Assembly (NCBI GenBank): GCA_003134995.1
Contig: PLDC01000029.1
Location: 186,001-250,000, forward strand
Direction of reading: 5' to 3'
From: Acidobacteriaceae bacterium
GTDB taxonomy: Bacteria; Acidobacteriota; Terriglobia; Terriglobales; Acidobacteriaceae
DNA length: 64,000 bases
How positions within the stretch are numbered: position 1 is the first letter of the stretch; every line of letters starts with the position of its first letter. Under the pieces are notes generated by a model, which worked only from the letters and a program-made list of their open reading frames with translations, did no database searches and was not told where the DNA came from. The position numbers and the translations under genes were made by a program. Shown here one piece after another: positions 2,374 to 55,687 of this stretch.

Positions 2374-4563
2374 ATGAAACTTTCTGCACAATGGATTCGT
2401 GACTTCGTCGATCTCACCGTCGATAACCGGCGCCTGGCTGAGGATTTGACTGGCGTCGGGATCGCCGTCGAAGGAATCAGCGGCTCGGGCGCTGATACTG
2501 TCTTCGAGATGGAGATTGGAACGAACCGTCCCGACGCGATGAATCATTACGGGGTCGCGCGCGAGGCGGCTGCGATCTATGATTTGCCGCTGAAGCACCT
2601 GTCAGCTGTCAGTTCTCAGCCGTCAGCAAAATCTTCGCACAATGCGGCCTTCCCGATCACGGTTGAAGAGCCGCAGCTTTGTCCTCGGTTTTCTGCGCGG
2701 GTGATTCGCGGCACCAAAGTTAAACCGTCCTCCGAAAAAATCGCGCACCGCTTGCGACTGCTTGACCAGCGTCCCATCAGCAACGCCGTTGATGCCACCA
2801 ACTATGTGCTCTGGGAGATGGGAAAGCCTACGCACGTTTTCGACATGGACCTTCTCGAAGGCGGCAAACTCATCATTCGTAAAGCTAAGAACGGCGAGAA
2901 GCTGAAAACGCTTGACGGTGTCGAACGCACGCTTACATCTGACGATCTGGTAGTCGCTGATGCGAAGCGCGCTGTGGGCCTCGCCGGAGTGATGGGCGGT
3001 TTCGACACCATGATCACCGGCAAGACGCGGAATATTTTGATCGAGTCGGCATGGTGGGATCCGGTAACGGTGCGCAAGACTTCCCGGCGCCATGGCATTC
3101 ACACCGACGCGTCGCACCGATTTGAGCGCGGCGCGGATTTTGAATCGACGGTGCTGTCTTGTGATCTGGTAGCGGCGCTGATTCTGGAATCGGGCGGCGG
3201 AGAATTGGTTGGCGACGTTATCGATGTGGTGTCGCGACAGATCGACCTGGCTCCAGTGGTGCTGCGGGTTTCGGAGGTGCATCGCATTCTAGGTGGAAGT
3301 TTGGAGACGGGAGAGATTTTTCGCATTCTGAAAAAGCTCGGCTTTACGCTGATCCCCGAAGGACAGGGAGACGCGCAGTTTCGCGTACAAATTCCCAGCT
3401 GGCGATTGGATGTGGAGCGCGAGATCGATGTGATCGAAGAAATCGCGCGACTGCACGGCTACGACAAATTCGGGAATACGTTGCCGGCCTTCAGCGGCGC
3501 GGTGGTGGAGTTGCCGCATGCGGCTGTGGACGCCACTTTGCGCACGCGGGCTTTGGCGTTGGGTTACAACGAAGCGGTTTCGCTTACATTTATTTCCCAT
3601 GCGGACGCGGAGTTGTTTTCTTCCGCCTCGGTGCTGGAGTTGGAGAATCCGCTCAGTGGGGAAGCACGTCTGATGCGGACATCCATGGTGCCGGGCATGC
3701 TGGAAATGTTGGAGCGCAACCTGAACAACGGAACCCAAAATGTTCGCCTGTTCGAGATGGGGAGGATTTACGAACAGTTGGGAGGGAACCCTGTTGAGCC
3801 ACGACGCATGTGTCTGGGCGCGACGCTGGCAGCGGTAAAGGGATCGCTGCCCGTCGGCGAGGTGCTGGATGTAAGCAAGGATGAGCATGCCGCGACGGCG
3901 GAGGCGTTTCGCTGCTTCAAGGGCGACGTGGAGAATCTGCTGGCAGGGTTCGCGTATCGTGAGTTGAGGTTTGATCGGGAGACAACGGAATATTTTCATC
4001 CGGGACGATCAGCGCGGGCGCTGATTGATGACAGGCCGGTAGCTTGGTTTGGGCAGATTCACCCCGAGGTAGCGAAGGTCACGTGGGAGGAAATAAAGGC
4101 GGGCGCTATCCTCCGCGAAACGGGCGCGGGCGCAGTGGCATCGCCCTTGCGCAAGCAGGTGCTGCGCGGCTTACGGCAAGAGGTGTTCGTAGCTGAAATC
4201 GACCTGGACAGACTGCACAGTGTCGGCTTGCGACAAGTTCGGTTCAGGCCGTTGTCGGCATATCCCGCGGTGGAGCGCGACTTTTCGTTCGTGTTTCCAG
4301 ATAAAGTGGAGTTTGAGGCGATGGGGCGGGCGGTGGCGGAGCTCGATATTCGCGAGATAGTTGAATTTAAACCCGTAGAGATTTTTCGTGGAGGGTCGAT
4401 CGAACCGGGACATTATTCCATTCTGCTGCGGGCAAAGCTACAATCCCCCGAGGAGACTTTGCGCGACGACGTCCAGATTGTGGACTGGTGTGAGAAGATA
4501 ATTGGTGCGCTGAAAAGGGTCAAGGGAGTGCAGCGGGTGGGTGGTGGTGCTTCTGCATACTAA
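2374..4563 (+). CDS. pheT: Phenylalanine--tRNA ligase beta subunit
   Basis: 729 aa MKLSAQWIRDFVDL...EIGTNRPDAMNHYGVAREAAAIY...HGYDKFGNTLP; adjacent to pheS. Confidence 0.96.
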   Translation: MKLSAQWIRDFVDLTVDNRRLAEDLTGVGIAVEGISGSGADTVFEMEIGTNRPDAMNHYGVAREAAAIYDLPLKHLSAVSSQPSAKSSHNAAFPITVEEPQLCPRFSARVIRGTKVKPSSEKIAHRLRLLDQRPISNAVDATNYVLWEMGKPTHVFDMDLLEGGKLIIRKAKNGEKLKTLDGVERTLTSDDLVVADAKRAVGLAGVMGGFDTMITGKTRNILIESAWWDPVTVRKTSRRHGIHTDASHRFERGADFESTVLSCDLVAALILESGGGELVGDVIDVVSRQIDLAPVVLRVSEVHRILGGSLETGEIFRILKKLGFTLIPEGQGDAQFRVQIPSWRLDVEREIDVIEEIARLHGYDKFGNTLPAFSGAVVELPHAAVDATLRTRALALGYNEAVSLTFISHADAELFSSASVLELENPLSGEARLMRTSMVPGMLEMLERNLNNGTQNVRLFEMGRIYEQLGGNPVEPRRMCLGATLAAVKGSLPVGEVLDVSKDEHAATAEAFRCFKGDVENLLAGFAYRELRFDRETTEYFHPGRSARALIDDRPVAWFGQIHPEVAKVTWEEIKAGAILRETGAGAVASPLRKQVLRGLRQEVFVAEIDLDRLHSVGLRQVRFRPLSAYPAVERDFSFVFPDKVEFEAMGRAVAELDIREIVEFKPVEIFRGGSIEPGHYSILLRAKLQSPEETLRDDVQIVDWCEKIIGALKRVKGVQRVGGGASAY
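2599..2626. repeat. In-frame heptamer array within pheT
   Basis: CTGTCAG CTGTCAG TTCTCAG CCGTCAG (4x7 nt), translated as part of LSAVSSQPSAKSS. Confidence 0.75.
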
Positions 4564-12949: not shown

Positions 12950-13098
12950 CGAGTACCTAGTACCTAGCAAGCAGCAATTGGCAACTAGCATTTAGCCAAC
13001 ACGCGCCGTTGCTAATCTTCGCAGGCGACTTTGGGCCCGATGCCAATTGCCAACTGCTAATTGCTTTTGGCCAGACGAACGACGAACGACGAACGACC
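12950..13098. repeat. Heptamer-word element upstream of hisS
   Basis: GTACCTA GTACCTA ... GCAATTG GCAACTA GCATTTA GCC ... CCAATTG CCAACTG CTAATTG C ... ACGAACG ACGAACG ACGAACG ACC just before the hisS ATG. Confidence 0.75.
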
Positions 13099-13101
13099 AA
13101 C

Positions 13102-15551: not shown

Positions 15552-15655
15552 CAATCAGCAATCAGCACTCAGCCAACATGAGCCTCAGTGTGCCAACTCT
15601 AACCGCTGAGAACTGAGAACTGAGAGCTGACAGCTGACAGCTGAAAGCTGAGAGC
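15552..15655. repeat. Heptamer-word hairpin element upstream of aspS
   Basis: CAATCAG CAATCAG CACTCAG C ... CTGAGAA CTGAGAA CTGAGAG CTGACAG CTGACAG CTGAAAG CTGAGAG. Confidence 0.85.
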
Positions 15656-22234: not shown

Positions 22235-22248
22235 AAGCAGCTGTCAGC

Positions 22249-22326
22249 TATCAGCTCTCAGCTTTCAGCCAAGCCCTCGTTCGATGTTGTTTTTGCTGAG
22301 AGCTGAAAGCTGAGAGCTGAGAGCTA
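22249..22326. repeat. Heptamer-word hairpin element (AGCTNTC / GAGAGCT words)
   Basis: AGCTGTC AGCTATC AGCTCTC AGCTTTC AGCC ... GCTGAGA GCTGAAA GCTGAGA GCTGAGA GCTAGA; 7-nt periodic arms, inverted. Confidence 0.85.
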
Positions 22327-24345
22327 GATTCTCTTGAACGCCTTCTGAATGTCCTTTACAGAATACCGCAGGACGACCGGTCTGCCATGCGGGCACGACA
22401 TTGGGTGGTCGGTTTTCGCGAGTTCGGCGAGAAGCCAGTCCATTTTATTTTGTTCGAGCGGCATGTTGACCTTGATGGCGGCGTGGCAGGCGATGGAAGC
22501 GGCAATGCGGCCGCGAATCTTTTCCAGGTTCAGAGACTGCTCCTCGCGCGAGATTTGATCGAGCAGTTCGTGGAGCATGTGCTCGACGGCAGCCGCATCG
22601 ACACCCGCCGGAGCGACCTTCACTGCGACACTGCGCGCGCCGAAGGGCTCAGCTTCGAATCCATTGTGCTGCAGTTCGTCGGCGATCTCGGCAAAGATGG
22701 CTTGCTGCGCTGGAGACAACTCAAGAACAATCGGCATGAGCAGGCGCTGGCTTTCGACTTTCTGCGCTGCGCGCTGCTTTAGGATGCGTTCGAAGAGCAC
22801 GCGCTCGTGGGCCACGTGCTGGTCAACGATCCATAGTCCATCTTCATTCACTGCGAGGATGAATGAATTGCGGATTTGTCCTAATGGTCGAAGCGTGGAG
22901 AGCGCGGCCAGTGTCGAGTCTTCTTCGCTTGCGTTCTCTGAAACATCAAGCGCGGGGGCGCAGCCGTTGTCTGGAATCGTCTCTGGAATTGCTTCGGCGA
23001 AGCTATCCAATCCGCGCGCCACGGGAATCGCAGCATTAGCCTCGACAGCGATTCCGCCTTCGAACTGAAAGCGTGCCGACAAGGCCGGCAGAGACGGCGC
23101 TTGCAGAGCGAAGCCTGCGCCGCCTGCCGGATCGTACAGCGCGCGTGCCGGCGCTCCAGATGCTGTCGCCAGATCGGATGGCGGCTCCCATTCTCTTGCC
23201 CCCGGCGTGAGGCCGGAGCTGGCCGTGGCGTGGGCGCGAATCTCGGTGGTGAACTGCGGCGCGGGGCGAGCCTTCATCAACGCAGCCCGCACGGTATCGC
23301 GGACGAAGTCGTGCATCAAGGTCGGTTGCCGGAAGCGAACTTCTGTTTTCGAGGGATGAACGTTGACATCGACCTCACCCGGCGGCAATTCCAGGAACAA
23401 CAACACCACGGGATAGACAGAAGGCGGAATGATGTTGCGATAGGCTTCGGTCAATCCGTGCTGGATGAGGCGGTCGCGAATCAGGCGGCCGTTCACGAAG
23501 ACATAAATCGAATTGCGATTCAGCTTCTGGATCTCAGGCTTCGAAACGAAGCCATGCAGGCGCATCTTGCCGGGATCGGCGGGTGCGGCCTCATCGTCAC
23601 TTTCATCTTTCTCTACACGCCGCCACGGCGGAGGCTGAGGCAAGCCGACGTGCTCAAGCGCTTGCTCGGCGGCCACGGCAATCAACTGGTCGAGTGTTTC
23701 TTTGCCGAAGACTTGATAGACGCGCTCGCTGTATCCCGCGACCGGCGGGGCGACCAGCATGGCGTTGGTCGCGGAATGCAATTCGAAATGCTTTTCAGGA
23801 TGCGCCAGCGCGTAGTGCGTGACCAGCGAAGCGATGTGCGAGAGTTCGGTCGATTCTGCTTTTAAGAACTTCTTGCGCGCCGGCGTATTGAAGAAGAGAT
23901 CGCGAACCGTGATCGACGTTCCTTCGGGCAGGCCAGCTTCCTCGACTCGCGCTATTTTGCCGCCGTTGATTTCGAGGATGGTTCCGGCTGCGGCACCGGC
24001 ATCGCGCGTTTCTAACCGCAGGCGCGACACGGATGCGATCGAGGGCAGCGCTTCGCCGCGAAAGCCCAGTGTGGCCACGCTTAGCAGGTCTTCGGCATCT
24101 TTGATTTTCGAGGTTGCGTGGCGCTCGAAGGCCAGCATCGCGTCGTCGCGCACCATGCCGCATCCGTTGTCGGTGATCTGGATTAGTTTCTTGCCACCTG
24201 CTTCGACGCTGATCTTGATGCGCGTCGCGCCCGCGTCCAGTGCGTTCTCGAGCAGTTCTTTCACGACGGAAGCAGGACGCTCCACAACCTCGCCGGCGGC
24301 GATCTTGTTGGCGACATGTTCGGGGAGTACGTGAATGCGGCCCAT
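22324..24345 (-). CDS. mutL: DNA mismatch repair protein MutL
   Basis: MGRIHVLPEHVANKIAAGEVVERPASVVKELLENALDAGATRIKI, GFRGEALPSIASVS, C-terminal CPHGRPVVLRYS. Confidence 0.97.
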   Translation of the reverse strand: MGRIHVLPEHVANKIAAGEVVERPASVVKELLENALDAGATRIKISVEAGGKKLIQITDNGCGMVRDDAMLAFERHATSKIKDAEDLLSVATLGFRGEALPSIASVSRLRLETRDAGAAAGTILEINGGKIARVEEAGLPEGTSITVRDLFFNTPARKKFLKAESTELSHIASLVTHYALAHPEKHFELHSATNAMLVAPPVAGYSERVYQVFGKETLDQLIAVAAEQALEHVGLPQPPPWRRVEKDESDDEAAPADPGKMRLHGFVSKPEIQKLNRNSIYVFVNGRLIRDRLIQHGLTEAYRNIIPPSVYPVVLLFLELPPGEVDVNVHPSKTEVRFRQPTLMHDFVRDTVRAALMKARPAPQFTTEIRAHATASSGLTPGAREWEPPSDLATASGAPARALYDPAGGAGFALQAPSLPALSARFQFEGGIAVEANAAIPVARGLDSFAEAIPETIPDNGCAPALDVSENASEEDSTLAALSTLRPLGQIRNSFILAVNEDGLWIVDQHVAHERVLFERILKQRAAQKVESQRLLMPIVLELSPAQQAIFAEIADELQHNGFEAEPFGARSVAVKVAPAGVDAAAVEHMLHELLDQISREEQSLNLEKIRGRIAASIACHAAIKVNMPLEQNKMDWLLAELAKTDHPMSCPHGRPVVLRYSVKDIQKAFKRI

Positions 24346-24386
24346 TGCCAGTTCTCAGTTTCCGGTTCTCAGTTCTCAGTTGCGGT
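24346..24386. repeat. Heptamer array abutting the mutL start codon
   Basis: AGTTCTC AGTTTCC GGTTCTC AGTTCTC AGTTGCG immediately adjacent to the mutL ATG (24343-24345). Confidence 0.75.
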
Positions 24387-52901: not shown

Positions 52902-54113
52902 ATGGCGAATCAGCAGGGAAATTTCTTGACAGCGATTGACGTGGGCAGCGCGAAGACTTGCGCGCTCATGGTAGAGGTTGGCGACGGCGGGCTGCGCTAC
53001 CGCGGGCACGGAGTAGCACCATCGCGCGGCTCGCGCAAAGGCGTGATCGTAGAACTGGACAAGGCAGTCGCGGCCATTCAGAAGGCAGTAGAAGCAGCCG
53101 AAGATGTGGCGGGTGCGGCGGTGGAGCATGCCATTGTGGGCATCGGGGGAGCGCATATTCGTGGAGTGAATAGCCATGGTGGCATCAGCCTGGGCACGCG
53201 TCCGCGGGAGATTGGCCGAGACGAGATCAAGCAGGCAGTGGATCGGGCGCGGGCAATTCCGCTGCCGGCGGATCGCGAAGTTCTGCACCTGCTGCCGCAG
53301 GAATTTATTCTCGACGATCAGGCTGGCGTGCACGATCCGCTGGGCATGATGGCGGCGCGGCTTGAGGTGCGCGTGCATCTGGTGACGGCGGCGACGAGCG
53401 CGGCGCAAAACGTGATAACCGCCGTGAACCGGGCCGGCGTCCACGTGGATGATACTGTCTTCGAACCGCTGGCAGGGGCTGATTCCGTGTTGCGTGCCGA
53501 CGAACGCGAAATGGGAGTTTGCCTCGCTGACATCGGCGCGGGATCGACGGAGCTGGTTGTATTTTTGCTGGGCGCGGTCGCTTTCACGGGAGTGATTCCC
53601 GTAGGCGGCGACCACTTTACCAGCGACTTGTCGGTAGGCATGTGCACGCCGCTGGCGGAAGCAGAAAAAATCAAGAAGGCTCACGGAAACGCGATCGTCA
53701 CGTTGATTCCCGAAGGGAACGAAGTGGAAGTTCCATCTGTGGGCGACCGGCCTTCGCGTTTGCTGCCGCAACGATTGGTGGCGGAAATTCTCGAGCCGCG
53801 CGCGCGAGAGCTGTTCGAAATGATGCGCGAGACTCTTCGTCAGAGCGGCATGTTCGATGCATGTTTAGCGGGCATTGTGCTCAGCGGTGGAGGTTCGCGA
53901 CTGCCGGGAATTTTCGATGTGGCCGAGTCGGTGCTGCGGCGTCCAGTGCGGTTGTCATGGCCGACGCCTCTGGCCAGGATGCCCGCGACTTTGGCTGAGC
54001 CGGAGTATGCGACCGTGCTTGGCATGGCGCATTACGGGCAAAGAGCGCGAGTAGCGCGCGGGTTTCAAGGCGATCGGTGGGGATCGAGATTGAAGGCGAT
54101 GTTAGTGGGATGA
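52902..54113 (+). CDS. ftsA: Cell division protein FtsA
   Basis: FLTAIDVGSAKTCALM, VGIGGAHIRGVNSHG, ADIGAGSTELVVF, IVLSGGGSRLPGI. Confidence 0.95.
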   Translation: MANQQGNFLTAIDVGSAKTCALMVEVGDGGLRYRGHGVAPSRGSRKGVIVELDKAVAAIQKAVEAAEDVAGAAVEHAIVGIGGAHIRGVNSHGGISLGTRPREIGRDEIKQAVDRARAIPLPADREVLHLLPQEFILDDQAGVHDPLGMMAARLEVRVHLVTAATSAAQNVITAVNRAGVHVDDTVFEPLAGADSVLRADEREMGVCLADIGAGSTELVVFLLGAVAFTGVIPVGGDHFTSDLSVGMCTPLAEAEKIKKAHGNAIVTLIPEGNEVEVPSVGDRPSRLLPQRLVAEILEPRARELFEMMRETLRQSGMFDACLAGIVLSGGGSRLPGIFDVAESVLRRPVRLSWPTPLARMPATLAEPEYATVLGMAHYGQRARVARGFQGDRWGSRLKAMLVG

Positions 54114-54115
54114 AG

Positions 54116-54226
54116 CAGTGGTCAGTGATCAGTGGTCAGTGGTCAGCAAAAGTCAAAACCAAGAGCGCGGGCCCAGGTTCTACTGGCCACTGACCACTAG
54201 CGACTGACCACTAGCCACTGACCAGT
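54116..54226. repeat. Heptamer-word hairpin element ftsA-ftsZ
   Basis: AGTGGTC AGTGATC AGTGGTC AGTGGTC AG ... CTGGCCACTGACCACTAGCGACTGACCACTAGCCACTGACCAG. Confidence 0.9.
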
Positions 54227-55586: not shown

Positions 55587-55590
55587 AGGC

Positions 55591-55687
55591 AGTGGTCAGT
55601 GATCAGTGGTCAGTGGCCAGTGAAACCGTGTGGGTAACCTTGATCTAATTTTGCTGACCACTGATCACTGAACACTGACCACTGCTT
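55591..55687. repeat. Heptamer-word hairpin element downstream of ftsZ
   Basis: AGTGGTC AGTGATC AGTGGTC AGTGGCC AGTG ... CTGACCACTGATCACTGAACACTGACCACTGCTT. Confidence 0.9.

Follow-up and report, generated by a model that had tools for sequence, protein, structure and literature searches.

In-frame heptamer repeats in a variable linker of the phenylalanyl-tRNA synthetase beta chain in a genus of soil acidobacteria

Judging by its sequence in related species, the linker that joins the B1 core to the B3/4 domain of PheT, the beta chain of phenylalanyl-tRNA synthetase, is a genus-wide hot spot of repeat turnover. The case analysed here lies in a window of 64,000 nucleotides (G000:C19:186001-250000) from the 5.6 Mb genome of a Ca. 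Sulfotelmatobacter-like acidobacterium (the host, G000). In this window pheT is an intact open reading frame of 729 codons, encoding 729 residues (2374..4563, plus strand), with the Pfam domains B3_4, CLM, B5 and FDX-ACB. Four heptamers of the CTNTCAG type, CTGTCAG CTGTCAG TTCTCAG CCGTCAG, lie in frame within it at 2599..2626 on the plus strand and are translated as residues 76-85, LSAVSSQPSA; sequence and coordinates agree exactly with the original prediction, from which this analysis started. We consider it probable that the segment is a passenger, a single arm of a degenerate heptamer family that sits in a disordered linker and is rewritten by template switching or recombination.

The 7-nucleotide periodicity of the tract exceeds what the peptide requires. 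When the pheT codons were resampled synonymously under the same peptide, the observed period-7 score was reached in 0.4% of trials (P = 0.004), and among periods 5 to 10 in the linker period 7 alone stood out. TCA accounts for 3 of the 43 serine codons in pheT, and two of those three fall inside the tract. If the repeat were a product of chance, a Ser/Ala/Gln-rich linker would simply happen to use codons that resemble it, and a linker that tolerates nearly any composition leaves room for such a coincidence. However, a periodicity confined to seven, which recurs at P ≤ 0.004 in the linkers of 13 further species (14 with the host) while no outgroup falls below 0.07, and the concentration of rare TCA codons in the tract make this explanation extremely improbable; synonymous resampling refutes chance or codon bias as the source of the tract.

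The tract is part of a dispersed repeat family, as had been proposed, with about 50 runs of the CTNTCAG family in the host genome. In a census of that genome made up of pattern searches and fetched stretches, the 24-nucleotide pattern of three CAGCTNT units plus CAG (at most one mismatch) has 54 matches, against one for the reversed control; within the window, CTGTCAGCTGTCAG (at most one mismatch) occurs five times with 0.01 expected. The 24-nucleotide pattern was found in 36 of the 41 same-genus genomes sampled, and across the class its distribution is patchy (42 of 200 genomes). Two intergenic copies to which the tract had been likened are real, and both fold as hairpins with arms on opposite strands. 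One spans 15552..15655 and has seven units in its right arm (z = -3.1); the other, previously given as 22249-22326 and here extended to 22238..22326, lies between mutL and the next minus-strand gene (z = -5.7). Neither hairpin is assigned a strand, nor is a CAGTTCT array of the wider family just upstream of mutL (24349..24381). The stem of the second copy (22235-22328) consists of six-base blocks with a mismatch at the free position between blocks, and of 53 runs with three or more units in the host-genome stretches that were fetched, 22 have a converging partner no more than 200 nucleotides away. The pheT tract itself is a single arm whose fold is not significant (z = -0.6). Other heptamers were also observed in the window: converging CAGTGGT / ACTGACC arms at 54112-54224 and 55590-55684 (54 matches of the CAGTGGY pattern in the host genome, where its reversed control has no match), and a GACGAAC/GACCAAC array at 13074-13101 that stops right before the hisS start codon (13102). 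The spacers of the rpmI-rplT-pheS-pheT region (222-256, 472-568, 1040-1165 and 2313-2372) each hold a different repeat-like element, some of them built of 7- or 8-mers.

Within the host-genome runs CTNTCAG has a nearly random third base, and arrays span three to seven units, with lengths clustered at three to four. Among the longer simple repeats of bacteria, heptamers are the most frequent, and an origin by slippage has been put forward for them (discussed in PMC4679880), a precedent for the view that local slippage built the array within pheT. The units nevertheless argue against it: neighbours differ at N more than within-tract shuffles do (P = 0.0008) and units two apart agree, which places the structure nearer to a 14-nucleotide alternation than to a slipped 7-mer. 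Tract length is near-constant at three to four units, and one-unit steps would break the frame. Local one-unit slippage is disfavoured by these unit statistics, and slippage as the origin of the pheT array is unlikely. The 14-nucleotide superperiod alternation is seen in host tracts at loci L111-L198.

The genetic code suggests why a single arm would be found within genes. The CTNTCAG strand is stop-free in any frame for any N and reads LSA[FLIV]S[FSYC]Q every 21 nucleotides, whereas its complement carries TGA every 21 nucleotides; only the CTNTCAG arm or orientation would therefore survive in genes, which would also account for a hairpin that is only half-present in PheT. Further in-frame tracts with CTNTCAG on the coding strand were found in the host genome in the tails of ParA, TrpA and a RibH-like protein (identified by eye), in the linker of ParB, within the radical SAM region of MtaB, before the C-terminal tail of NrdJ and in the linker of the N-terminal domain of DnaG; several of these proteins rest on single loci. 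Wherever a gene with recognised domains contains a tract, CTNTCAG reads along the coding strand; the sole exception, L123, is near a doubtful start codon. The N-terminal region of ParB (L111:1791-3014) reads as a mosaic of translated repeats: VSRQPSAVS, QVPRFARNDK, KSPLLAKDARNGAPP and VDMVxPV repeats.

Solved PheRS structures align on both sides of the PheT linker, to the B1 core and to the B3/4 domain. An AF2 model built from 32 sequences (pLDDT 86, compared with 44 for an 11-row alignment) predicts residues 69 to ~94 as mostly coil, and the pLDDT of residues 80-86 falls below 50. This predicted coil, together with genus orthologues that stay in frame despite very different linkers, upholds the earlier suggestion that an essential synthetase apparently tolerates the tract as a linker read in frame. 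Two other features of the chain were noted. When PheT is aligned to solved PheRS, chain residues ~40-152 are passed over, and the host PheT is without the B2 (OB-fold) tRNA-binding domain, residue ~40 joining the equivalent of 153 (window 2374-2520). A second insertion of ~28 residues (KVTWEEIKAGAILRETGAGAVASPLRKQV; ~569-597, window 4078-4161) is of low confidence in AF2 and not obviously repeat DNA; it interrupts the tblastn matches of other members of the genus, and G011 and o15 are without it.

The linker (2596..2649, plus strand) was compared among ~40 genus pheT genes and outgroups, with one genome per species. Genus linkers carry 0 to 67 extra residues, every one in frame, and in most outgroups the linker is short (LKPIEPKLP...), four residues less than in the host. 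Heptamer tracts of the CTNTCAG, GCTTCGG/CAG, GCTTCCG and TGGCCAG types occupy the same four-unit slot, and palindromic inserts also occur in the linkers, among them AGCGGCTAAAGCCGC, GGCACGRCTGAAGYCGTGCC, GACGCGGCGCTGAAGCGCCGC, GGGGCTAAAGCCCC and CCCACTTCTCGC..GCGAGAAGTGGGG. The palindrome GACGCGGCGCTGAAGCGCCGC is present in 42 of 45 genomes, in up to 76 copies, with controls near zero. Contigs end at the linker in G012, in G025 and in a second pheT fragment of G016, as is expected of repeat DNA.

The original prediction took the tract for a strain-specific insertion of 10-15 residues. Measured against outgroup-type sequence, ~16 nucleotides of ancestral linker are replaced and 12 are added, so the net gain is only four residues, and several other species carry the tract. 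That a mobile element entered pheT of the host strain recently would be in keeping with a family that is dispersed and often palindromic, and with the presence in 43 of 45 genus genomes of Y1 transposase-family genes (PF01797), the kind that moves REPs. It would also agree with the closest relative: in a PheT tree built without the linker, the host and G065 are sisters (support 99/91), and G065 has no heptamers, its segment being eight residues longer than the host's and made of other palindromic repeats, including a palindrome pair. The anticipated absence from sister strains thus holds for the tree-sister, but not for G063, G024 and G008, which have the same length with the same tract, and the tract stands at the same codon position in many species of both main clades. 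Moreover, the pheT copy is half an element that replaces rather than adds, and neither a target duplication nor an associated enzyme was seen at it. An insertion specific to the strain is ruled out by the same-genus orthologues, and a recent arrival as a mobile element seems to us improbable. An orthologue of the same length but free of repeat-like DNA, which would have spoken against a repeat origin, was looked for among the PheT orthologues and none was found; same-length orthologues show 7-nucleotide periodicity, weak in G032 (P = 0.026).

A single ancient gain before the split of the two main clades, followed by many losses or allele exchanges and by no repeated gain, is possible, though we doubt it. 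G000 and G063 belong to different clades, and yet they have near-identical linkers (LSAVSSQPSAK..H.A) with the same left junction; this likeness may stem from inheritance with losses or from horizontal exchange between species, rather than from independent gains. Against a single gain, tract-free lineages keep an ancestral LPSAAKAA-type sequence that simple deletion could not recover, and unit type varies between species at a constant length of four units. On the PheT tree without the linker there are at least five changes of heptamer state, and G004 and G016, which are separated by very short branches, have wholly different linkers. GCTTCGG-type units are found in pheT of G010, G013 and G029 although they are rare in those genomes (the reversed-pattern control is invalid for GCTTCRG, since its reversal is nearly a rotation of the same pattern), and with this rarity recent ectopic copying gains no support in these species. 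The abundance of donors in a species' own genome was considered as a predictor of the unit type in pheT and fails for these three GCTTCGG carriers.

Retention of the repeat over deep divergence could also reflect a selected function, with the tract acting as a DNA or mRNA binding site or as a functional PheT peptide. TAACTGA repeats have been suggested to regulate translation (PMC4679880), and heptamers end directly before the start of hisS in the window. However, there are orthologues without the tract or with unrelated repeats in the same slot, and no residue of the linker is conserved among orthologues, which makes a selected function very unlikely. We infer that the tract is neutral for PheT function.

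For a passenger arm that is rewritten in place, which is the reading we favour, the disordered linker would tolerate translated repeat, and its length would be free to change only by multiples of three. The rewriting most probably proceeds by template switching during replication, between repeat arms or copies, together with recombination between related strains; the comparison behind this view is between species, one genome each, which differ by many changes. A change of type at constant length would fit these two processes; whole-element transposition and single-unit slippage would fit it less well. The pheT tract is without a second arm, so that arm-to-arm switching cannot act locally on it. 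DnaG has a variable, largely repeat-built linker in every species read, and many of these linkers form a full hairpin, with both arms of one heptamer type and the type varying among species. Left and right DnaG arms match better within than across species (14.1 versus 12.7 of 21; 0 of 20000 permutations, relatedness ignored), and with that same proviso they change together as template switching would have it. In MtaB, different heptamer types occupy the same site across species, and both arms are present twice. Non-complementary pairs were observed as well: left CTNTCAG with right ACCAACG arms in DnaG linkers (L297-L326) of G000, G019, G021, G002 and G018, and the same pairing in NrdJ (L183) and in MtaB of G018 and G067. 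More broadly, and only tentatively, we propose that a templated process keeps rewriting heptads in place, as whole arrays and both hairpin arms at near-constant length, and that the linkers of PheT, DnaG and MtaB might evolve mainly by genome-repeat replacement and not by point mutation.

In this genus, genome repeats serve as raw material for the linkers of PheT and a few other essential proteins. With this finding, the range of repeats inside genes widens from obligate intracellular bacteria to a soil lineage with large genomes, in which unrelated repeat families fill one essential-gene linker, species after species. Two questions become testable: how degenerate heptamer arrays originate and are homogenised at unchanged length, and what share of protein linkers is supplied by genome repeats. 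Caution is also called for in reading linker peptides such as LSAVSSQPSA, RPTTNDQRPTT and SPKPESRSPKP, which are translated repeat DNA and not conserved motifs.

A search of the open-access literature on Sulfotelmatobacter and repeats returned no paper on these heptamer elements, and several known systems offer points of comparison. Template switching between the arms of inverted repeats is known to make the arms alike, also within genes (PMC8604942, PMC8794818), with homogenisation of arms inside genes described in yeast (PMC8604942), and in Nematomorpha mitochondria coding palindromes are kept in frame (PMC6649704). These cases concern yeast, RNA hairpin histories and animal mitochondria, and their abstracts do not describe heptad register or a change of unit type. 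The G-rich heptamer arrays of Xanthomonas and Nostoc are dispersed and prefer four units (PMC4692102); unlike the CTNTCAG family, they form G-quadruplexes and are under-represented in coding DNA. REPs (GTAG/CGTC) are short palindromes that occur inside ORFs too. Many of the genes concerned act in replication and repair, some encode tRNA synthetases, and at roughly one and the same site in recB two Xanthomonas species carry different REPs (PMC3733652). REPs, however, are palindromes of 20-40 bp with a GTAG or CGTC tag at one end, whereas the heptamers in pheT are repeated directly and form no palindromic stem, and the pheT linker differs in its heptad architecture and in a turnover of types across the whole genus. 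The palindromic elements of Rickettsia (RPEs) and of Wolbachia are found in intergenic DNA as well as in exposed regions of unrelated conserved genes, where they keep the reading frame; orthologues carry inserts at the same place, hence the suspicion of hot spots (PMC3767692, PMC10969869). The heptamer family is likewise both intergenic and in frame in conserved genes. AF2 predicts the PheT segment as a low-confidence coil between domains. RPEs, in contrast, are palindromes of 100-150 bp, where the pheT tract is a lone arm of 28 nucleotides that does not fold significantly, and the one PheT linker is home to several unrelated repeat families. The TAACTGA repeats of Beggiatoaceae, cyanobacteria and Bacteroidetes are direct heptamer repeats of 2-6 units, mostly intergenic, which inside ORFs take the stop-free orientation and give LSVISYQ (PMC4679880), a peptide close to the LSA.S.Q of the pheT family. 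CTNTCAG tracts are similarly short direct arrays in the stop-free orientation within genes, and the TAACTGA repeats of Beggiatoaceae often end just before start codons, like the hisS array. The exact TAACTGA / TCAGTTA unit is not the one found here, where the consensus is CTNTCAG with a nearly free third position; the TAACTGA system has a fixed unit and similar heptamers are rare as repeats in it, whereas here unit types are many and hairpin pairs common. By analogy with these systems, the heptamer tract appears to work like RPEs and in-gene REPs, but is built from degenerate heptamers.
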